Positions 18,801-32,183 of a stretch of DNA of 64,000 nucleotides are shown here, piece by piece. The notes under the pieces were generated by a model. That model was not told the origin of the DNA and made no database searches. It saw only the letters and a list, made by a program, of their open reading frames with translations. Positions within the stretch are counted from its first letter, which is position 1; the number at the start of each line of letters is the position of its first letter. Source of the stretch: Emticicia oligotrophica DSM 17448 (GTDB taxonomy: Bacteria > Bacteroidota > Bacteroidia > Cytophagales > Spirosomataceae). A program made the position numbers and the translations under genes. Location of the stretch: assembly GCF_000263195.1 (NCBI RefSeq), contig NC_018748.1, positions 4,650,001-4,714,000 on the forward strand, in the 5' to 3' direction.

Positions 18801-18831
18801 AAAAAAGGACGTAGAAACGTCCTTTTTTTAT
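18801..18831 (+). terminator. terminator of dapD
   Basis: A perfect stem (AAAGGACGT / ACGTCCTTT) closed by an AGAA loop and flanked by A- and T-runs. Confidence 0.9.
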
Positions 18832-20911: not shown

Positions 20912-21340
20912 ATGAACCTCAACGAAAAAATTAGACGCTTTATTAGTGAAAGGGATTTAACCTCAACAAAATTTGCTGATGAGATTGGCGTACCTCGTCC
21001 AAGTATTTCACACATTTTATCTGATAGAAACAAGCCAAGTCTTGAAATTGTACAAAAAATGTATCGCAGATACCCAGAATTAGGTTTCAACTGGTTTTTG
21101 GAAGAAGAAGAAGCAAGCAGCCAAAATGTCATGCAACCGACTATTAATCAATCAGTTACAGGAACTAAACGTACGGAGTATGTTCCACGAGAATTGAGTG
21201 AAAGAAAATCATCTGAACAAATATCAACACAAGCAAATCTGAACTCAAACATTTTATCAAATTTCGGACACGGAAGCATTGCTCGAATAATGGTTGTCTT
21301 CACCGATGGAACAATCCAAGAATTTAAGACGAGTAACTAA
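20912..21340 (+). CDS. XRE-family helix-turn-helix transcriptional regulator
   Basis: The first 60 residues form a Cro/C1-type HTH (MNLNEKIRRFISERDLTS, then KFADEIGVPRPSISHILSDR). The remaining 80 residues are polar, with a short C-terminal strand motif (ARIMVVFTDGTIQEFKTSN) seen in Bacteroidota chromosomal XRE proteins. Length 142. It has its own promoter, an array of TGTAAC words over its leader, and a terminator, so it is a single-gene unit that may control itself and the divergent small RNA. Target genes cannot be read from the sequence. Confidence 0.88.
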   Translation: MNLNEKIRRFISERDLTSTKFADEIGVPRPSISHILSDRNKPSLEIVQKMYRRYPELGFNWFLEEEEASSQNVMQPTINQSVTGTKRTEYVPRELSERKSSEQISTQANLNSNILSNFGHGSIARIMVVFTDGTIQEFKTSN

Positions 21341-21433: not shown

Positions 21434-21441
21434 TACCTTTG
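21434..21441 (+). promoter_or_regulatory. -7 box of the B12-controlled operon
   Basis: TACCTTTG matches TAnnTTTG and would start transcription near 21448, at the 5' edge of the riboswitch. No TTG lies at the right distance upstream, so the -33 element is weak or absent. Confidence 0.5.
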
Positions 21442-21448
21442 TGACGAT

Positions 21449-21670
21449 TTGCGGTGCTACTATACAATTCTACAATTGTACTTTTAGCTTAATAGGGAAT
21501 CTCGTTAAACTCGAGAACTGTCCCCGCAACTGTAAACCTCTTCAAATGTCAAATCATATTTGAAACTGATTGCAAAATCTATGGCATTCTTAGCCTTACC
21601 ACTGCTACCATAAGCGGGAAGGTGCTGTAATCAGGGAGGTGAGTCAGGAGACCTGCCGTAAATCATAGTG
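21449..21670 (+). ncRNA. cobalamin riboswitch
   Basis: The aptamer core is plain. An AATAGGGAATCTCG segment near 21491 and CCCCGCAACTGTAA near 21522 are followed by GCGGGAAGGTGCTG near 21614. The B12 box GTCAGGAGACCTGCC is at about 21642-21658. It lies in the leader of a BtuB-like receptor, about 140 bases before its start. It should repress the operon when adenosyl- or other cobalamin is abundant. The 5' and 3' limits are approximate. Confidence 0.95.
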
Positions 21671-21809
21671 AACTAATTTTCTTCGGAGGAAAGAAAGAGT
21701 TCAGAAATATTTTCAACTTGTTTTTCATAGGGTATCATGTTCATTTTTGACCTCCCAAAAAGAGGTCGAATAAGCTATTTTTATACCCCAAAAATCAATT
21801 TTAATTCCG

Positions 21810-23858
21810 ATGCAAAACCCATCGAGCATTGCTATTAAATGCCTAAAAAGAGCGACAAATATTGCCGCAAAAATTAGCAATCATTTGCTTGTTTGTGGTA
21901 TATTTTTAAGCGGCTCAATCAAGACGTTTGCCCAAAATGCAGAACCAGATTGCGAAGACTGTAAGAAGTTGAATGAGGTAAGTGTGTATAGCTTTAGTCC
22001 TGAAAAATTTATGACTGGCTACAAAATCCAAAAAATTGATTCTATCAATTTAGCTAGATTTCAATACCAAACTTTAGCAGATTTTTTACAATTCCAAGCC
22101 CCTTTAGCATTAAAATCTTATGGGTCTGGACAGCTTACAACCATTGCTTTTAGAGGCACTTCTGCCAACCATACCGCTGTACTTTGGAATGGTTTAAATA
22201 TTAATTCTCCAACAGTTGGACTTTCTGATTTATCTACAATTCCAATGATGGGATTTGACCAAATGGCCATCCAATATGGTTCATCTGCAAGTTGTGTTGG
22301 TACTGATGCAGTAGGGGGAAGTATCCTCCTCAATTCAGCCCCAAAATGGCAAAATAGAGGTATAAATTCAGTTATTGGCACTCAATTTGGAAGCTTTAGA
22401 AGTGGAAATTTAAATTCTGGAATTCGGATGAATAAGCCATTTAAACGATTTGAATATAGCAATAAAACACTTATTTACGGAGGAATTAGCAGAAATTTCA
22501 ATGGAGAAAATCCTAATACTGATGCTATCAGAACAGATAGAAAGGGGCGAGAATATAGTGTAGAACCTTCTAAAACTACACAAAAAGGATTCGTACATGA
22601 TTCATATATCAGATTTATTACGAATAAAAAGAGCGATTACAAGCTAATTTACTTTAATTCTTGGATAACTGATAATAAACTTACAATTCAACCAACTGTA
22701 CTGACTTATAGGGAAATTACTCAGACACAAGCTTACCGTTTTATTTTGGGAAGTCAGCTAAATAATACTTCTATCAAACTAGGCTTTATTCGTGATATAC
22801 TTGACTACGGAAAGGGAGATTTTACTTCACCAAGCCACGCATCAACAGATAGATATATTTTTAGAGTTGAACATGATTTTTTCAACCACAATCAATCAAA
22901 TTTTTCGGTTAGAATAGGCAGTGAAATTGTGCATTTTGCTACTCAAGTTGATGGTTATGGCCCACAAATTATTCAAGAAAATAGAGGTGATGGATATGTC
23001 TTAATTAGGAAGGCATTTAAAGTTCAAAAACAACCCAATAAACTCATTGCGACCCTAAATTTAAGACAAGCACTATCATCTGTTTACAAAGCACCTTTTA
23101 CGCCCGCATTAGGCATCAATTACAGTGCTATCACAAGCGAAAATCAACAAATAAATTTGTTGGGTAATATTGCTCAAAGCTATCGTTTACCAACCCTCAA
23201 TGAGCGTTATTGGCAAGTCTTAGGAAACCCAAATATTCAACCCGAAAAAGGTTTCAATAAGGAGATTGGAATTGAACATAAATTGATGTTTAATCAATAC
23301 CTAAATCTTTACACAACTATAAATGCTTTTCATAATTTAATTGATAATTGGACATACTGGAATCCTGCTAAAAATTACCGTGTGGAAAACCTTCAACAAG
23401 TTTTGAGTAAAGGTTTGGAGTTTTCATCTTCTTTAAAATTTAATAATTACCTTGCATTCCAGACCTCAGGTATTACATTAGCCTATTCACTCACTCATGC
23501 ATCTCAACAGAAGGTCTATGATATTTATGCACAAGATTTAGTTGGAAAGCAGCTAATATATGTCCCACGTCATTCAATTACCATGAACACCTATTATGGC
23601 AGCAAGAAATGGAATGTGAGTTTACAAGGCCTTTTCAACTCAGCTCGATATTTTACTTTTGACCATTCGGGAGAGCCTTTTCCGCCTTACTTTATCCTCA
23701 ACTCAACATTTAGCCATCAAATTAAAGTTGGACCTCAGAAGGGTAATTTTATTTTACAGGCAAATAACCTCACAAATACCGTTTACCCTAATGTAAAACG
23801 CAATGCTATGCCAGGAATCAATTTTCAGGCAGCACTTGTATTTTCAATAAGTCAATAA
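21810..23858 (+). CDS. btuB: TonB-dependent receptor, BtuB-like (vitamin B12 uptake)
   Basis: A leader peptide ending KTFAQ precedes a plug domain (about residues 48-180, with DFLQFQAPLALKSYGSGQLT and AFRGTSANHTAVLWNGLNIN) and a 22-strand-type barrel to residue 682 ending ALVFSISQ. The plug motifs and the barrel segment YRLPTLNERYWQVLGNPNIQ are those of cobalamin receptors in this phylum. The upstream cobalamin riboswitch makes corrinoid transport the likely role. The gene for a beta-propeller lipoprotein follows after 37 bases. Confidence 0.9.
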   Translation: MQNPSSIAIKCLKRATNIAAKISNHLLVCGIFLSGSIKTFAQNAEPDCEDCKKLNEVSVYSFSPEKFMTGYKIQKIDSINLARFQYQTLADFLQFQAPLALKSYGSGQLTTIAFRGTSANHTAVLWNGLNINSPTVGLSDLSTIPMMGFDQMAIQYGSSASCVGTDAVGGSILLNSAPKWQNRGINSVIGTQFGSFRSGNLNSGIRMNKPFKRFEYSNKTLIYGGISRNFNGENPNTDAIRTDRKGREYSVEPSKTTQKGFVHDSYIRFITNKKSDYKLIYFNSWITDNKLTIQPTVLTYREITQTQAYRFILGSQLNNTSIKLGFIRDILDYGKGDFTSPSHASTDRYIFRVEHDFFNHNQSNFSVRIGSEIVHFATQVDGYGPQIIQENRGDGYVLIRKAFKVQKQPNKLIATLNLRQALSSVYKAPFTPALGINYSAITSENQQINLLGNIAQSYRLPTLNERYWQVLGNPNIQPEKGFNKEIGIEHKLMFNQYLNLYTTINAFHNLIDNWTYWNPAKNYRVENLQQVLSKGLEFSSSLKFNNYLAFQTSGITLAYSLTHASQQKVYDIYAQDLVGKQLIYVPRHSITMNTYYGSKKWNVSLQGLFNSARYFTFDHSGEPFPPYFILNSTFSHQIKVGPQKGNFILQANNLTNTVYPNVKRNAMPGINFQAALVFSISQ

Positions 23859-23895
23859 ACAATTCTTTTATTTATATTTAATTTCAAATTAGTTT

Positions 23896-24981
23896 ATGTT
23901 TACCAACAAATTCTTATTCCGAACATCCTACCAACTTAGCTTACTTAGTTTGGGTTTATTTTTATTCAGTTGCGAAAAAAACGAAACGCAAGTCCAACCA
24001 TACAACAATGGCGTACTCATTTTTAATGCTGGAAATTTTTTCGATAACAATGGTACGCTTTCTTTATTCGACCGAGATACTAAAACTGTAACCACCGATA
24101 TTTTCTTGAAGGAAAATAATCGTTCACTGGCTGGTGGACTAACTGGTTATTCTGAAGTAGATGGCAAAGGGATAATTTTGGTTGATAATTCTACCGATGG
24201 AAAAGATGCTATTGAAATTGTTGATGCAAAGACATTCAAGTCTATTGCATCTATTAAAGGTGAAGTTGATAATCCAAGACAAGTTGTAAGAGTTTCAACA
24301 AACAAAGCTTATATTACTTGTTGGGATACTTTCAATACCGACTATTCTTATAAGTTTGGATTCATTGCAGTTCTTGATTTGACAACTAACAAAATCACAA
24401 AAAAAATACCGGTTGACAATGGAGCAGAAAGTATCGTTGTAATTGGCACTAATGCATACGTTGGAAATGTTGGAAGCCAGCGAACAATAAAGGTAGTTGA
24501 TACGCAAAAAGACGAAGTAGTTTCTAGCATAGAAGTAGGTGCGAATCCGAGTAATTTTGTTTTAGACGCATCTAATAAAATATGGATGATTGTTGGCAAA
24601 CAAATTGTTTTATTCAATCCAACAACTAAATCAATTGAAAAAACTTTTTCTTCTGGCAGTGATATTAAGAAGTCTCCGAGCAATTTGAGCATAAGTAATG
24701 ATAAAAATACTCTTTACTTTACTTACAATTTTTATGATGCTACTGATGGTTACAAACTAAAAGGGCAAATAAATGCAATTGAAATTTCATCTGGTGTAAG
24801 TAAAACTTTTATTAATCGAACCTTTTCTTCAGTAAATGTTGATTCTAAAAAAGAGCAAATCTATACAACACTCATTCCTTCATACAAACAAGCTGGGTAT
24901 GTTTTCCGTTATCAAATGAACGGCACTTTGATTGATTCTGTAAAAGCAGAAATCGCACCGAGTGGATTTTACTTCAAATAA
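23896..24981 (+). CDS. YncE/DUF5074-like beta-propeller lipoprotein, possible BtuG-type corrinoid binder
   Basis: A signal peptide ends in LFLFSC, a lipobox with Cys near residue 26. The mature part is a repeated-blade beta-propeller of the YncE/DUF5074 kind (for example KVVDTQKDEVVSSIEVGANP and IEIVDAKTFKSIASIKG). In Bacteroides the surface lipoprotein BtuG, a seven-bladed propeller, captures cobalamin for BtuB. The placement here, 37 bases after a BtuB-like gene under a B12 riboswitch, suggests the same role. The link to BtuG is inference from fold and position, not from a direct comparison. Confidence 0.75.
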   Translation: MFTNKFLFRTSYQLSLLSLGLFLFSCEKNETQVQPYNNGVLIFNAGNFFDNNGTLSLFDRDTKTVTTDIFLKENNRSLAGGLTGYSEVDGKGIILVDNSTDGKDAIEIVDAKTFKSIASIKGEVDNPRQVVRVSTNKAYITCWDTFNTDYSYKFGFIAVLDLTTNKITKKIPVDNGAESIVVIGTNAYVGNVGSQRTIKVVDTQKDEVVSSIEVGANPSNFVLDASNKIWMIVGKQIVLFNPTTKSIEKTFSSGSDIKKSPSNLSISNDKNTLYFTYNFYDATDGYKLKGQINAIEISSGVSKTFINRTFSSVNVDSKKEQIYTTLIPSYKQAGYVFRYQMNGTLIDSVKAEIAPSGFYFK

Positions 24982-25039: not shown

Positions 25040-25227
25040 TGTTTTTAGTGTGATATTTTATAAATTCTCTTTACTTTGGGCTTTCAGATAAAAACACTTA
25101 TCAATAATTCATTCGATACCCCTCAAAAAATAGCCTTTAAATACACCATGTTTAACTCCAACCATTAAATTAAGGCAATCACCTTATCCCAAAAAAATAT
25201 ACCCCTTAAAACAAGTTTTTTAAAGCC

Positions 25228-25680
25228 ATATTTTTCATATTCTTATATTTAATACTAAAAATAAAATATTTTCAATAATAAATATAAATACCAAACAAAA
25301 TATACTTTTAATATTTTTTTATACTTTTATATATAAATAATTAATTTAATACTTTTTATTTAATATAAATAATAATTTATTTTTCATTAATATTATACTT
25401 TTAATAAGTTTTAAAATAATAAAACTAAAATTTATTTTCATATTAAATATACTTATTATTTATAATATAACTATTTTAAATAATTAATTAAATTAAAATA
25501 TTAAATAATTATTAATCTAATTTAATTAAACACTTAGTATAAATAGTTATATTAGTTATAATTATACAATAATTATCATACATTTAATAATTACTATTAA
25601 AATGATAATTACAATTAAAAACATACTGTGGATAAAAATAATAATGATGATATTGCTCATATATTTTATTTGACCTATAT
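25228..25680. other. extremely AT-rich tract upstream of parA
   Basis: From 25261 to 25620 only about 26 of 360 bases are G or C, roughly 7%, far below the rest of the window. TATACTTTTAATA occurs twice exactly (25301-25313 and 25394-25406), with further TATACTT or ATACTTTT words near 25320, 25349 and 25449. The few GC bases here are mostly C on the plus strand, opposite to nearby G-rich intergenic DNA at 27.2-27.3 kb. No ORF is present. In plasmid type Ib loci the centromere lies upstream of parA, so this tract could be such a site or a melting element. That is inference. Confidence 0.55.
25627..25635 (-). promoter_or_regulatory. perfect DnaA-box match
   Basis: TGTGGATAA is the complement of the consensus DnaA box TTATCCACA and sits at the edge of the AT-rich tract, 75 bases before parA. 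A single box is weak evidence; a second perfect match lies at 26958-26966 and another at 46791-46799. Confidence 0.35.
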
Positions 25681-25709
25681 TGCGAGTAAATATTATTATT
25701 TTACATCCA

Positions 25710-26474
25710 ATGATTATTAGCGTAGTGAACAACAAGGGAGGGGTTGGCAAAACCACTTCTACACAAAACTTAGGAGCAGCATTTAATAAGTTTGCGGGAG
25801 CAAGGGTATTGTTTATTGACCTCGATGGACAAGCAAGTTTAACCCGCTGCTTTGGAGTACAAGAATCACAAGTTGGAAGAAACCATGTTGGAAATTATCT
25901 AACTGGTGAGCTCTCATTTGAGACTATTGTAATCAATACACCGATTGGAGATTTGCTTCCTAGCTCAGGCGAATTAAATGCAAAAGAAGATACAATCAAA
26001 GCTTCTCCAGTTTTTCCATTTAACCTAAAACTTCTTTTAGATAAGGTTAAGAAAAACTATGAGTTTGTTATGATTGATTGTCCGCCAACTTTATCTGGTT
26101 TAACTCGTATTGCCCTTATTGCTTGTGAAATGTATCTGGTTCCACTTCAGGCCGAATATCTAAGCTATGAAGGCCTTAGAAACTTTTTATTTTATTCTTC
26201 GGAATTACAACAAATCAGTCCAAACACCCATTTAGGTGGTGTATTCGCCACTCGTTATAATCCGAAAATCAATAAAAAACTAAGCAATGACCTTATAGAA
26301 GCTACTAAGCAACAATTAGGGGAGAAATTCTTCCAAACAACAATTAGAGATAACATTGCGATTTCGGAGGCTCAAGCAAATGGAATGGACATTTTCTCGT
26401 ATTCACCCGATAGTAATGGAGCAATGGACTACTACAGTCTAACAAAGGAGATATTAAAAAGTATAAATAACTAA
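25710..26474 (+). CDS. parA: ParA family partition ATPase
   Basis: A deviant Walker-A ATPase of 254 residues without the N-terminal HTH of type Ia plasmid ParAs. Motifs are the Walker A NNKGGVGKTTS (residues 7-17), the switch region LFIDLDGQASLT, and Walker B-like EFVMIDCPPTLSG. Such ATPases bind DNA nonspecifically and move centromere complexes. The start is placed at the ATG at 25710, which puts the Walker A at the usual distance from the N-terminus; a TTG at 25680 is in frame. A small RHH gene follows 46 bases downstream, where a ParB would be expected. No ParB-type gene is present in the window. Confidence 0.9.
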   Translation: MIISVVNNKGGVGKTTSTQNLGAAFNKFAGARVLFIDLDGQASLTRCFGVQESQVGRNHVGNYLTGELSFETIVINTPIGDLLPSSGELNAKEDTIKASPVFPFNLKLLLDKVKKNYEFVMIDCPPTLSGLTRIALIACEMYLVPLQAEYLSYEGLRNFLFYSSELQQISPNTHLGGVFATRYNPKINKKLSNDLIEATKQQLGEKFFQTTIRDNIAISEAQANGMDIFSYSPDSNGAMDYYSLTKEILKSINN

Positions 26475-26520: not shown

Positions 26521-26844
26521 ATGGCAAAAAATAAAAATTTCACTTTCGAAAGTTTAGTACCTACCAATAAATCGGCTGATACAACTCCCGCACAAACCAA
26601 TGCGATTGTTAATATCGTGCAAGAAACGGGTCCATCAACCAAAGTTACATTTGACTGCCCAAATGATTTGGTTGAACAAATGAAAGATTATGGTTATTGG
26701 GAAGGAATGTCACAAAAAGATATCATCATTGAGGCATTAGGTGTATTTTTTGAAGATAAAAAGATAAAAGAAAGACCTGAAAAGGTAAAAATGAGAAAGA
26801 AAGTTGGTCGTAAACCTAAAGCCTTGAAAGCATTTATAGGTTAA
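26521..26844 (+). CDS. small ribbon-helix-helix protein, likely ParB-type partner of ParA
   Basis: At 107 residues it has a disordered N-terminus (MAKNKNFTFESLVPTNKSAD) and then a ribbon-helix-helix pattern. The strand TKVTFDCP (about 41-48) leads into helix NDLVEQMKDYGYWEG and helix SQKDIIIEALGVFFEDKK. The tail is strongly basic (KVKMRKKVGRKPKALKAF). Small RHH proteins encoded directly after a short ParA are the centromere-binding adaptors of type Ib partition loci on plasmids. The position here fits that exactly. The fold call comes from the pattern and was not checked by a search. Confidence 0.7.
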   Translation: MAKNKNFTFESLVPTNKSADTTPAQTNAIVNIVQETGPSTKVTFDCPNDLVEQMKDYGYWEGMSQKDIIIEALGVFFEDKKIKERPEKVKMRKKVGRKPKALKAFIG

Positions 26845-26968
26845 TATAATTTTATTTGGGCACCTTGAAGTCAATTTTGGGTTAAAATTTCTTATAATTT
26901 TACAGATAGGGGACTTTTACATCAAATATCAACCACTAATTCACAATTATTCTAAGATTATCCACAAA

Positions 26969-26984
26969 TGTTCCACGTGGATTT
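26969..26984. promoter_or_regulatory. near-match to a parS centromere site
   Basis: TGTTCCACGTGGATTT keeps the left half and the centre of the parS consensus TGTTNCACGTGNAACA but ends TTT instead of ACA. The inner TCCACGTGGA is a perfect 10-bp palindrome. It starts two bases after a DnaA box. Only one copy is seen. Confidence 0.35.
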
Positions 26985-27378: not shown

Positions 27379-27406
27379 CTGTTATATAATTTACATTATG
27401 TTAAAT
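27379..27406. other. candidate dif site (XerC/XerD recombination site)
   Basis: The right arm TTATGTTAAAT (27396-27406) is identical to the XerD-binding arm of E. coli dif. The six-base centre TTTACA and the left arm CTGTTATATAA (27379-27389) keep the ATAA next to the centre. The XerC arm is the more variable one among phyla. The site is intergenic, at the point where gene orientation in the window changes from mostly rightward to mostly leftward, as expected where two forks meet. Plus-strand intergenic DNA also changes from G-rich just left of it to slightly C-rich just right. Confidence 0.65.
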
Positions 27407-27447
27407 AGAAAATTATATAACTCCTCTATTTAATACTTATTGGGCAC

Positions 27448-27500: not shown

Positions 27501-28958
27501 TTATTTACGTTTTGAACATTGCTCAAGAACACCTTTTAAGTTCTCAAGATTTGCAATAGTATCTTGGTCATCAGACTTTAATGATTTACACTTATCGAAA
27601 TAAGTCTTTGCTTCATTGAATGTTCCGCAAACTTGCTCTTCAATTGCCTTACCTTTCTCATTGTATGTTTTCATATCCATTCTATCTACTTGACCTTTAA
27701 TTACAACTGCAGAGTTGAAATAATATACTCCTAAGTTATAATTTGCATCAAAATTAGATGGGTCAATTTCAAGAGCTTTCTTATAGTTTGCAACAGCCAT
27801 ACCCTTTAATTCGCTATCTTTAGCACGTAAAGATACCAATTCTGCTTCTTTTTGAGCATTTCCTTGTGCTGCTTGGGTAAGTTTCTCAATCTTTTGCTTT
27901 ACTGATGAAACTTCTGCACTTGCAGATGCAATCATTTGATTTACACTTGCAATACTGTTTTTGATTGACGCTGCGTTTTTAGGCTCTTTCTTCAAACGAT
28001 CAGTCAAACGCTTTAATTCATCTTCTTGAGCAGATTTCTTGCCTTCAACACTCGCTAATTCTTTCTCTGCGTCAGCTTTTTCTTTGGCAGTACCTAAAAT
28101 CTCACTTTCAATTGGACGAATTTTCTTTTCAAATTCTGAGGCACCATTTTCGTATAAAGTACCTAAATTCTTATAATCTTCGGCTAAAGTTTTTGCATTT
28201 TCGGCATTATTAGGTGTGCCTGCAATTCTTTGCTTCATCATTTCAATGGCTTCATTCATCATATTACCATTGAGATAAACATTGATGAGTGAACTTTGCA
28301 AATCTTTATCTTTTGGATTAGCAGCAATACCTTTCTTCAATACTTCAATTGCTTTTGCATAATCTTTGTCACCTCTGTAAAGCTCAGATAAACCATAAAA
28401 TACTGCAATATCTTTACCTCCTTCGTCAATGAATTTACCAAAATACGTCTTAGCATTTTCCATATCTTGAGACTGCTGAGCGACAATACCAGCATAAAGT
28501 GCTGACATAGTATCTTTTGGACTTGTATTTGATGCTAATTTGAATAAATCAAGGGCATTTTTGAAATTCTTTGCATTATAAAAGCCTGCACCTTGTTGCA
28601 TTAAGGCAGTATAAAGACTTGAAGTAGTTCCAGTACTAGCTTTCTCAATATCTTTTAAACCCTTCCCTCCTGCTGCTTTCTCGATTTCTAATGCTTTTTG
28701 ATATGTTTCAAATGCTTTTTTAGATGCTAAAGAATCTTTTCCGCAGTTTGTTGCCATTTCAAGATAAGATTCAGCTAACTTGACCCAAGAAGCTGATTTT
28801 ACACCTTTTTTAGGGTCTTGAGTAGCTTTTTCTGCTTTAGCTATATTATCAGTGGCAGACTTACATTGGGCATCTTTCAGTTGGGCATCAATTCCTGCCT
28901 GTGCATAGACACCTGTTGCAATCGCTGTCATTACAGACGCTAAAATGATTTTTTTCAT
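27501..28958 (-). CDS. secreted TPR protein with a central coiled coil, 485 aa
   Basis: A signal peptide (MKKIILASVMTAIATGVYAQ) precedes TPR units (about 100-270, for example KDYAKAIEVLKKGIAANPKD). A charged helical segment of about 110 residues (270-385, rich in Glu/Lys, likely coiled coil) interrupts them, and another TPR (MAVANYKKALEIDPSNFDAN) follows. It is probably a periplasmic or outer-membrane scaffold. The gene lies 188 bases downstream of gyrA on the same strand, with a large hairpin between. Function is unknown. Confidence 0.82.
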   Translation of the reverse strand: MKKIILASVMTAIATGVYAQAGIDAQLKDAQCKSATDNIAKAEKATQDPKKGVKSASWVKLAESYLEMATNCGKDSLASKKAFETYQKALEIEKAAGGKGLKDIEKASTGTTSSLYTALMQQGAGFYNAKNFKNALDLFKLASNTSPKDTMSALYAGIVAQQSQDMENAKTYFGKFIDEGGKDIAVFYGLSELYRGDKDYAKAIEVLKKGIAANPKDKDLQSSLINVYLNGNMMNEAIEMMKQRIAGTPNNAENAKTLAEDYKNLGTLYENGASEFEKKIRPIESEILGTAKEKADAEKELASVEGKKSAQEDELKRLTDRLKKEPKNAASIKNSIASVNQMIASASAEVSSVKQKIEKLTQAAQGNAQKEAELVSLRAKDSELKGMAVANYKKALEIDPSNFDANYNLGVYYFNSAVVIKGQVDRMDMKTYNEKGKAIEEQVCGTFNEAKTYFDKCKSLKSDDQDTIANLENLKGVLEQCSKRK

Positions 28959-29146: not shown

Positions 29147-31798
29147 CTACTCTACGGTTACTGTTTCTTCGCCTGCTGCTGTGTTTTCTTCTCCGTTTAC
29201 CTCTGATTCTTCTTCATCTTCGCGTATAATACGGGTAACAGAAGCAATATCATCCGTATCTGACATACGAATTAGCTTTACTCCTTGTGTATTACGGCCC
29301 ATCACACGTAAATCTGAAACTTTGATACGAATTGCAACACCTTTTTTTGTGATAATCATTAAATCATCATCATCTGTCACTTCTTTGATTGCAACCAAAT
29401 TTCCAGTTTTTTCGGTAATATTCAAGGTTTTAACGCCTTTTGCACCTCTTGAAGTAATTCTGTATTCATCAACATCAGAACGTTTTCCGTAGCCTTTATC
29501 AGAAACTACTAAAAGCTGCGTTTCAGGTCTAGATACACAAACCATTCCTATCGCACGATCTCCATCTTCAAGGTTAATACCTCTAACCCCTGTTGCTGTT
29601 CGACCCATTGGACGGGTTCCAGATTCATGGAAACGAACCACTTTACCATTACGTGCAGCAATCACAATATCATTATCACCATTCGTAAGAGCTACATCTA
29701 ATAGATTATCTCCTTCGTTGATATTTATTGCAATGATACCTCCTTGGCGTGGACGAGAATAGGCTTCTAAAAGTGTTTTCTTCACTGTACCATCTTCTGT
29801 ACACATCACTATATAGTTATTACTAATATAATCTGCATCAGAAAGTGTCTTTACATTCAATACTGCTTGAATTTTATCATCAGCTTCGATATTGATTAGA
29901 TTCTGTATGGCACGACCTTTAGAAGTTTTTGAACCCTCTGGAACTTCAAATACACGCATCCAGAACAGACGTCCTTTTCTTGTAAAAATTAGCAAATAAT
30001 TGTGGTTAGTTGCCGCAAATAAGTGCTCTGTATAATCTTCGTCTTTGGTCTTTACGCCACGAGAACCTGTACCTCCACGGCCTTGAGTACGATATTCTTG
30101 TAAAGGTGTACGCTTGATATAACCTTGATGAGAAATCGTTACAAGCATTTCGTCATCAGGGATCATATCCTCAATACTGAACTCACCAGAAGCCATTTCA
30201 ATTTTTGAGCGGCGTTCATCACCATAACGGGCTTTAAGTTCAGCTAATTCATCTTTGATAATATTACGTTTACGTTCTTCTGAAGCTAAAATAGAGCGTA
30301 AATCATCAATTAATGCCTTAATTTCATTGTATTCAGCTAATATTTTATCTTGCTCTAAGCCTGTCAAGCGTTGTAAACGCATATCCAAAATAGCTTTCGC
30401 TTGAATTTCACTCAAAATGATACCACTTGAAGTATCAATATCGTAAGTTTCTGCAATTTGAAGTCGTTGTAAGCCATTTACCAAGAATTCTTCTTTTTCT
30501 TTGGCTGTCATAAAATCACCAGCCATTAAAGCTGCTTTAGCTTCATCAGCATCTCTCGACTTACGAATAAGAGCAATAACAGCATCTAAATAGTCAAGTG
30601 CGATTAATAAACCAACTAAGATATGAGCACGCTTTTGAGCTTCTTTTAAATCATATTGTGTACGTCGAGTAATAATCTCTAAACGGTGCTCAACATAAAA
30701 ACGAATCATATCTTTCAAGTTCACCGTCACTGGGCGGCCCTTCGAAAGAGCTACGTTATTGATACTAAATGATGACTGTAATTCAGTGTACTTATAAAGG
30801 TTATTCAATACCACATTTGGCACTGCATCTTTGCGTAAATCATACACGATACGCATTCCTTCACGGTCAGATTCATCTCTAATATCTGAAATACCCTCAA
30901 TTTTTTTATCATTAATTAGACCCGCTGTTTTCTCAATTAAAGCAGCCTTATTAACCATATAAGGAATTTCTGTAACTACGATTTGGTCTTTACCTGTTTT
31001 CGAAACTTCAAAATTCGCTACCGCTCTAATAATGATACGACCTCTACCCGTTTCAAAAGCAGACTTAACACCACTGTAACCATAGATAACCCCACCTGTT
31101 GGAAAATCTGGAGCTTTTACGTGTTGCATTAACTCTTCAACAGTAATATCATAATTATCAATATACGCCCTTATTCCATCTACAACTTCGCTAAGGTTGT
31201 GCGGTGCCATATTGGTAGCCATACCAACGGCGATACCTGATGACCCATTCAAGAGCAAGTTTGGAATTTTTGCTGGTAGAACGGTTGGTTCTTCGAGTGA
31301 ATCATCAAAGTTCGGTTGAAAATCAACGGTTTCTTTATTGATATCTGCCAATAATTCTTCCGAAATACGCTTCAAACGAGCTTCAGTATAACGCATCGCA
31401 GCTGGCGAGTCGCCATCGATTGAGCCAAAGTTACCCTGGCCATCAACCAATAAATAACGTAACGACCACGGTTGGGCCATACGCACCATTGTCATGTATA
31501 CCGATGAGTCGCCATGTGGGTGGAATTTACCTAATACCTCCCCTACAATACGAGCAGATTTCTTATATGCACGATTATGATATACACCAAGTTCTGCCAT
31601 ACCAAATAATACACGGCGATGAACTGGTTTCAAGCCATCACGTACATCAGGTAAGGCACGAGAGATAATAACTGACATTGAATAATCAATGTACGCCCCT
31701 CGCATTTCGTCTTCGATGTTTATTGGGATAATAGTGCCGTTGTTGGAAGATTGGGAATCGTCGCCCTCTGGAATTAAATTTTCTGTTTCCTCAGCCAT
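29147..31798 (-). CDS. gyrA: DNA gyrase subunit A
   Basis: GyrA cuts and rejoins DNA in negative supercoiling together with GyrB. At 883 residues it has the winged-helix/tower domain with the catalytic Tyr137 in AAMRYTEAR, then the six-bladed C-terminal wrapping domain and an acidic tail. The quinolone region reads [17 protein letters not shown]. The residue equal to E. coli Ser83 is Ser98, but the one equal to Asp87 is Met102, which is unusual. The GyrA box is QGRGGTG, also a departure from QRRGGKG. A good promoter lies about 80 bases upstream. The neighbours do not include gyrB. Confidence 0.97.
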
Positions 31799-31909: not shown

Positions 31910-32102
31910 GGATAAAACAGGGTTTGAATCGAAAAAAGATACTTTTTTAGCAAAAGAAATATGTCATTTAATACTTATTATATAAATATTTATTAATATA
32001 TTTATAATACTTTTTGTTTTTATTATACTTATATAATCAATTATGAATACCGTTAAATAAAATTTAATTACTTATTAATAATTAAATTGTAATGTTGAAA
32101 TA
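31910..32102. other. AT-rich intergenic segment upstream of the DUF4242 pseudogene
   Basis: This stretch is rich in TATTAATA and TATAATACTT words, reminiscent of the tract at 25.3 kb. It contains no ORF and no recognisable promoter for the rightward pseudogene. Confidence 0.4.
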
Positions 32103-32183
32103 GAGCGTGGAGCCCATAACTCAAAAAAAACGGGGCGACCCCGAAAAGCCAAATGAGTAGGAAAAACAAAACTACGTGAAACT
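32103..32183 (+). ncRNA. candidate structured 5' leader (possible cis-regulatory RNA)
   Basis: A GC-rich island in very AT-rich DNA, directly before the DUF4242 frame, can fold into three nested stems. They are CGTGG/CTACG (32106-32110 with 32172-32176, one G-T pair), ACTCA/TGAGT (32119-32123 with 32154-32158) and CGGGG/CCCCG (32131-32135 with 32139-32143). The joining segments are A-rich. An alternative pairing, GTAG (32157-32160) with CTAC (32172-32175), would compete with the first two stems, as in a switch. I do not recognise a known riboswitch class. Confidence 0.45.

Follow-up and report, generated by a model that had tools for sequence, protein, structure and literature searches.

This locus raises two linked questions: whether a 28-base sequence at which genes converge is the dif site of its chromosome and, if so, why genes and a site of the partition type lie directly beside it. 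The window, by which we mean the whole 64,000-nucleotide stretch of DNA that was analysed, corresponds to bases 4,650,001–4,714,000 of contig C5 (4,798,158 bp) in a genome of six contigs and 5.22 Mb. The initial annotation had proposed a candidate dif site here, with a right arm equal to the XerD arm of Escherichia coli dif and a left arm ending in ATAA beside a six-base centre. Both arms are as described: positions 27379–27406 read CTGTTATATAA-TTTACA-TTATGTTAAAT, in an 11-6-11 layout, and the right arm is identical to that of the K12 dif printed in the part of PMC2731167 consulted. The parts of the site are as follows.

27379–27389, plus strand: left (XerC-type) arm of dif, CTGTTATATAA, read directly and set against a profile of 77 sites
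27390–27395, plus strand: six-base centre of dif, TTTACA, which is TTTATA in most of the 77 sites
27396–27406, plus strand: right (XerD-type) arm of dif, TTATGTTAAAT, the same as the E. coli arm, with 8 of 11 positions invariant in the 77 sites

These bases are very probably the dif site of the chromosome and lie inside its replication terminus. They share with the E. coli system, as set out in the same portion of PMC2731167, the layout, the XerD arm and the presence of one site per chromosome, and differ from it in the XerC arm (GGTGCGCATAA there, CTGTTATATAA here) and in having a tetratricopeptide repeat (TPR) gene and gyrA as neighbours. Taken alone, the arm match is weak evidence, because control patterns match as often or more. 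ATAA-N6-TTATGTTAAAT occurs in the 5.22-Mb genome once exactly, six times with one mismatch and 80 times with two, which makes 87 matches against 159 for a reversed control pattern, and at three mismatches the window holds 23 matches where shuffles predict 23.7. Numbers of this kind would suit an accidental resemblance to one half of a dif site within AT-rich intergenic DNA. What makes the call strong is conservation in relatives rather than the arm match: a 27-base sequence keeps its place in the gene order from genus to genus and from family to family, controls yield hardly any matches or none, and this rules out the chance reading, whose probability we regard as close to nil.

The 27-mer was searched at up to three mismatches, at which C5 carries a single match and controls gave none in 11 genomes of the genus and two in 296 genomes of the phylum; the sequence form found in the window is confined at three mismatches to 69 of those 296. 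A 22-base core is present at the same threshold in 32 of 38 genomes, the window's own included, and was not matched in G005, G006, G020, G024, G032 and G033; its reversed control likewise matches several genomes at three mismatches, so that some of these matches are due to chance. From the 32 genomes with the core, 30 loci were fetched, one per genome and all with at most two mismatches (G025 and G026 are absent). The left arm begins with GTT in 28 of these 30 loci, the window counted, as judged by eye. In relatives, a comparison that the initial annotation had proposed, the core recurs beside the TPR gene in 24 of the 30 loci (window included); that neighbour is absent at dif in the other six, G037, G031, G035, G028, G030 and G036.

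Named records extend the pattern. Among the best 80 of 590 gyrA matches, mostly Cytophagales by title, the 27-base site occurs at up to four mismatches in 47, every time on the strand opposite gyrA and never on the same strand, 1.3–7.5 kb past the gyrA match, and 20 shuffled versions of the consensus gave no match over the same loci. The remaining 33 lack dif at four mismatches, several of these loci being short. The closest named gyrA match within the best 80 of 590, a set from which very near records may have been omitted, is from Lacihabitans, at 78% identity. In the profile of 77 sites the sequence is nearly invariant from TATAATTT to TTATGTTAA, and an A-rich stretch to the right, at profile positions 37–43, is conserved as well; by eye, the TPR gene probably has its terminator there. 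The dif of the window is itself ordinary and of a known kind. Predictions for 19 Bacteroidetes strains (Kono et al. 2011, PMC3025954) concern the same phylum and the same kind of site, and in the portion of that main text available the words Cytophaga and Spirosoma do not appear.

The genes that mark this place are listed here.

20912–21340, plus strand: HTH_3 gene of 142 aa, the conserved left neighbour, whose family (F2) is found on the left side of dif in every one of 17 loci
27501–28958, minus strand: TPR-repeat gene, the usual dif neighbour, identified by TPR models
29147–31798, minus strand: gyrA, above the cut-off of TIGR01063

From left to right, the order in the family is trmB, a gene of family F4, dapD, the HTH gene, a variable slot, dif, the TPR gene and gyrA, interrupted by insertions in some members. 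The convergence of genes on the site, counted earlier as 17 of 21 rightward on the left and roughly three quarters leftward on the right, is borne out among non-overlapping ORFs of at least 100 aa (15 of 19 and 23 of 28, respectively), and gyrA, rpsP and rnpB do lie on the minus strand to the right of dif. Two RNA elements were also seen in this neighbourhood. A cobalamin riboswitch (21435–21674) stands ahead of a TonB-plug gene and a 361-aa gene (21810–24981), a set that only some members of the genus have in the slot to the left of dif, and a DUF805 RNA motif at 32102–32167, barely over the gathering score, lies about 460 bp upstream of a 256-aa ORF.

If the site is dif, the strand composition of the chromosome should switch near it, and the initial annotation had named a skew extreme close to 27.4 kb as the mark of a terminus. 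Skew was sampled over about a quarter of C5, as 60 stretches of 12 kb taken every 80 kb. Negative values predominate over the first 1.9 Mb or so and positive ones between 2.0 and 4.65 Mb, so that the coarse cumulative curve has its minimum at the 1.92-Mb sample and is highest at the last samples, 4.64 and 4.72 Mb. The maximum itself is the 4.72-Mb sample, which counts against the position of dif, and the stretches to its right are partly G-rich (4.72–4.74 Mb); steps of 10 kb over 4.57–4.80 Mb and the first 90 kb place the maximum at 4.66–4.67 Mb, with dif at 4.677 Mb. Inside the window the cumulative maximum falls at 18,814, which is 8.6 kb left of dif. Of the local asymmetry claimed at first, the slight excess of C just to the right holds (−0.14 over 5 kb), and the excess of G just to the left is weak, being +0.05 over 2 kb, −0.01 over 5 kb and 0.00 over 10 kb. 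A clear G excess starts farther left, and the switch on the scale of the chromosome is clear though noisy. In two relatives, the sign changes between the 2.80- and 3.15-Mb samples in G014, with dif at 3.05 Mb, and between 2.86 and 3.12 Mb in G003, a less clear case in which dif, at 2.71 Mb, lies ahead of the change.

Short polar motifs switch at the same place. In the 1.158 Mb sampled, the KOPS-like GGGTAGG points toward dif 45 times and away from it nine times (p 7e-7); it is the second most strand-biased 7-mer of that sample and, since it was chosen from these very data for being among the top-skewed 7-mers, the p-value is optimistic. GGGTAGGG is found 12 times toward dif and never away in that sample, and GGGNAGGG, a KOPS form, 23 times toward and seven away overall, with one toward and two away within 50 kb of dif. 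Across 63 dif-centred loci of relatives, GGGTAGGG points toward dif in 37 cases and away in four, counts that are not independent since the loci share genes. The 7-mer AGGAGAG is biased toward dif as well (51:13 in the sampled part of C5).

The genome encodes the proteins that such a site would need, with XerD above its model cut-off, XerC at 304 bits, below a cut-off of 335, and an FtsK_gamma domain at 6.5e-28. In the Xer system, as established for E. coli, FtsK at the septum is steered by polar KOPS motifs to dif, where it activates XerD. By analogy, when recombination leaves a chromosome dimer, septal FtsK would be guided along the DNA by the KOPS-like motifs to dif and would there activate XerD; XerD and then XerC would exchange strands in the six-base centre, and the dimer would be separated. 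Binding of XerC and XerD and recombination at 27379–27406 are what we infer on this basis. The likeness to bacterial dif/XerCD systems therefore takes in the switch of skew and of KOPS-type polarity and the genes for XerC, XerD and FtsK-gamma; these, together with the relatives, agree with the probable terminus first proposed. A firm dif of this kind gives a fixed point from which the terminus can be mapped in a lineage that has been little studied.

A better dif match elsewhere in the genome, which the initial annotation had taken as grounds for doubt, was looked for; there is none on C5, and a dif-like site with two mismatches to the 27-mer lies at C6:48325–48351, on a separate, plasmid-like contig of 100 kb. 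The cumulative skew of C6 peaks at 47 kb, near that site, and six of seven GGGTAGG copies point toward it on the assumption that C6 is circular and has its start at the minimum near 16 kb (by eye). C6 has its own ParA (C6:91851), and the machinery acting at the chromosomal dif probably also serves this replicon through its dif-like site. Contigs of G004, G007 and G009 carry dif-like sites too, with one to three mismatches: on G004:C15 a Rep-like gene, below its model cut-off, lies 4 kb from the site and a ParA is also present, and on G009:C30 a ParA lies 5 kb away. By eye, the bases upstream of C6:48325 resemble those at the G004:C15 site. A dif with KOPS polarity has been described for large secondary replicons in the available portion of PMC13342612.

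The second question concerns what lies immediately to the left of dif.

25210–25709, plus strand: low-GC block of 500 bp, 4–21% GC, upstream of parA; candidate centromere or operator
25710–26474, plus strand: dif-linked ParA-type ATPase (ORF open from 25680, ATG at 25710; Pfam AAA_31, 1.9e-39)
26521–26844, plus strand: 107-aa basic partner, possibly a ribbon-helix-helix protein, with a homologue at dif in 10 parA-bearing genomes
26958–26966, plus strand: TTATCCACA, a DnaA-box-like sequence beside the parS-like site, found by consensus match
26969–26984, plus strand: parS-like site TGTTCCACGTGGATTT, 394 bp left of dif, whose 14-mer occurs exactly once in the window

Features of this sort invite the opposite reading, in which the region is the replication origin and not the terminus: dnaA is 121 kb off, and parA, a parS-like site, a DnaA-box-like sequence and a very AT-rich stretch are all at hand. 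The skew passes from positive to negative here, however, the genes converge and the KOPS-like motifs point inward. We place the origin instead near 1.93–2.03 Mb, because the skew minimum falls there (1.93–1.94 Mb at finer sampling), three parS-like sites lie there and the 16S genes, at 1.412 Mb on the minus strand and 2.129 Mb on the plus strand, diverge from that area, about 1.94 Mb. The parS-like sites come from a search with TGTTCCACGTGGAACA, which has seven matches on C5 at three mismatches with CACGTG intact: 1.929, 1.984 and 2.034 Mb, which are the closest of the seven, one beside dif, and 1.433, 3.302 and 4.505 Mb. The inferred origin and dif would be joined by unequal arms of about 2.7 and 2.1 Mb (2.74 and 2.06 Mb). 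The dnaA gene begins at base 141 of C5, about 1.9 Mb from this origin. In G003 and G014, too, dnaA and the sampled skew minimum are at least about 1.5 Mb apart; the distance of dnaA from dif is 0.69 Mb in G003 and 2.1 Mb in G014, so the spacing of dnaA and dif varies. We set the origin reading aside as very improbable in view of the sign of the skew, the convergence of genes, the divergence of 16S genes and the parS-like sites at 1.93–2.03 Mb. It follows that dnaA is unfit as an origin marker in this genome, and the accessible text of PMC10197239 gives the same caution for gut bacteria, in which origins need not sit at dnaA.

The dif-linked ParA is a Walker ATPase by Pfam and missed the NCBIfam equivalog cut-offs. 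It is distinct from, and 35% identical to, the ParA paired with parB near 4.11 Mb, where the neighbouring ParB-family protein scores above the cut-off of TIGR00180. That second pair (near 4.114 Mb on C5, with a Spo0J-type ParB) itself lies some 2.2 Mb from the inferred origin and the parS-like sites there. Counting the window, ParA stands beside dif in nine of 11 genomes of the genus, the other eight proteins being 84–92% identical, and all nine genus genomes in which dif was found have both parA and the 107-aa gene; in G005 and G006, which are 81% and 90% complete, neither the dif-linked ParA nor dif was found. One genome of another genus, G017, has the pair at dif with a ParA of 66% identity. 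The low-GC block precedes parA in all ten parA-bearing loci, at about 400–500 bp (about 400 bp in G017). No homologue of ParA or of its partner was found in the 80 named loci (the best 80 of 590), and the 20-kb stretches around the ParA homologues of 59% identity in G004 and G007 contain no dif-like site at five mismatches and no 107-aa partner.

The 107-aa partner has no Pfam match and no plasmid homologue in PLSDB at E 0.01. We take its sequence pattern to look like ribbon-helix-helix, and it is possibly such a protein: a model from the single sequence gives strand-helix-helix at low confidence (mean pLDDT 44, which is not good enough to search for similar folds), and a weak PDB match to the ribbon-helix-helix of CopG (E 0.22) is ranked under an unrelated match. 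Plasmid partition cassettes pair a ParA with a small ribbon-helix-helix partner. The arrangement at dif resembles these cassettes in its ParA ATPase followed immediately by a small basic gene, with an AT-rich stretch upstream, and differs from them in being chromosomal and beside dif and in a ribbon-helix-helix fold that is weakly supported.

The reading that we prefer, with close to an even chance of being right, is that a plasmid-type par pair was captured next to dif and kept. In its specific form, for and against which we find the balance level, the pair would be a relic left by a plasmid or an integrative element that had come in at dif through Xer recombination, and would have been retained for its own sake. 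The ParA is of plasmid type, with plasmid matches that reach about 41% identity and are mostly from Bacteroidota (both among the matches listed); the slot between the HTH gene and dif is filled differently in different relatives; and two of four other genus contigs with a dif-like site have a rep-like or parA gene within 4–6 kb (G004:C15 and G009:C30). Elements of the Gonococcal Genetic Island type integrate at dif. They carry a ParA/ParB cluster, according to the part of PMC3334931 covered here, and the likeness is that par genes adjoin dif; the difference is that no second dif was found on the chromosome contig. Such a copy, flanking the par genes, was sought on C5 at up to three mismatches and rejected, which tells against the relic. 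So do the identity of ParA across the genus, at 84–92% above that of the TPR gene (56–80%, best segments), and the parS-like site that adjoins dif in six relatives without the pair.

That site is the more widespread element. TGTTCCACGTGGAT stands at 26969–26982, between the 107-aa gene and dif, and of 17 family loci (the window and 16 of the 23 other family genomes searched) 15 have a match to the parS-like pattern, with at most one mismatch, in the 5 kb to the left of dif, the misses being G003 and G015. None lies right of dif in the 17 loci, and 40 dinucleotide shuffles gave none; the test of enrichment is after the fact because the pattern was drawn from the same loci, one of which matches it on the other strand also. 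Six of the 15 loci lack the par pair (G011, G012, G013, G014, G018 and G021). Among the 47 named dif loci the site is found in four, three of Spirosoma and one of Telluribacter, and it was absent from those of Dyadobacter, Hymenobacter, Pontibacter and Lacihabitans over left flanks of 0.1 to 8.7 kb. The copy in G017 is near-symmetric, lies 2.6 kb from dif and may be unrelated to the others. In G014 and three Spirosoma loci (L301, L143, L154 and L164), a TAAAG-N5-CTTTA inverted repeat, seen by eye, closely flanks the parS-like site on its left and has one additional pair in L154; it is matS-like in layout only.

Is this a site for ParB? The chromosomal parS consensus given in the portion of PMC10197239 consulted is TGTTTCACGTGAAACA; the site here shares with it the CACGTG core and a canonical-looking left half, and departs from it in a right half that reads GGAT and in adjoining dif rather than lying near the origin. 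It fits the parS palindrome at 13 of 16 positions, the left half fitting and the right half not, and about 2.6–2.7 Mb separate it from the three sites close to the inferred origin. There is a sizeable probability, somewhat short of even, that the palindrome is instead an operator or the site of another protein, for which DnaA and the conserved HTH protein are examples. Of the 19 copies listed, 17 have GGAT and not GGAA as the right half, and so do not form a symmetric parS; in the genome of the window the site differs from TGTTCCACGTGGAACA at three positions, and matches of that grade number 22, against 13 for the control; and 10 of 19 loci have a DnaA-box-like sequence next to it. We take TTATCCACA to fit the DnaA-box consensus, and the ten loci with TTWTNCACA within about 45 bp of the site, where 0.34 would be expected at random places, comprise all eight genus loci that have the parS-like site, G014 and L154; part of this enrichment may be kinship of the motifs, because both share TCCAC. 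An operator would be expected upstream of a gene, but the site lies between convergent genes in 13 of 15 family loci (by eye, the exceptions being G011 and G017). In G007 it is also one of two places without mismatch among the matches listed, for a pattern that had been widened to fit. In whole-genome counts at two mismatches this widened pattern did not exceed its reversed control in most of six relatives, and G007 was the only one with a clear excess; its listed matches omit rows for G003, G014, G013 and G011, so the search is uninformative on other sites of those genomes.

Partition genes and centromere-like sites normally lie near the start of replication or on plasmids. Those at this terminus are an unusual variant whose function we infer, and neither a terminus parS-like site nor a dif-linked par pair was found in a literature search of one open-access library. 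A bolder reading than capture, and a rather doubtful one, takes the parS-like site together with the parA/107-aa pair next to dif as a module for handling the terminus. The family terminus might then have a partition apparatus of its own, an idea that we advance tentatively and think unlikely to hold as a whole: a conserved parS-like element at dif, often with a DnaA-box-like sequence, to which one genus adds ParA and a small putative DNA-binding partner, would position or pair the terminus or control ParB/SMC, as a counterpart of MatP/matS built from origin- and plasmid-type parts. A function is favoured by how well the pair is conserved and by the spread of the parS-like site through the family. 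What counts against a general role is that the right half is non-canonical, that the pair is missing outside the genus and G017, and that the slot varies in content. If the dif-linked site and ParA pair do act at the terminus, terminus handling in such bacteria becomes testable, as does the question of why a parS-type site is kept at dif, the place at which SMC unloading is put in the portion of PMC13342612 available.

Close to dif itself, a further palindromic element was seen in the window.

27410–27421, plus strand: AAATTATATAAC, an inverted copy of 27381–27392, with 12 exact bases in 3 of 77 sites

It places a second XerC-like arm (27413–27421) six bases past the XerD arm. The inverted 12-base copy is found in the window, G001 and G002 (the 3 of 77 sites), five to six bases beyond the XerD arm, where shuffled flanks give a mean of 0.055 and a maximum of one, and the DNA fold of the region has a z of −3.5. 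It could be a hairpin fold or a second docking place for XerC. In G002 both copies of the arm are altered together (by eye), and templated repair of a quasi-palindrome would explain this paired change as well. Additional sequences near dif were also seen in named loci. L134 and L157 have TTAACATAA within 150 bp of dif, and all six Pontibacter loci fetched (L150, L158, L165, L177, L187 and L191) have a second, inverted dif-like site, TTAACATAAAGTATATTATNAGTGAC, 52–63 bp to its left, a pairing that recalls the paired inverted sites of Xer-using phages described in the accessible part of PMC3091885.
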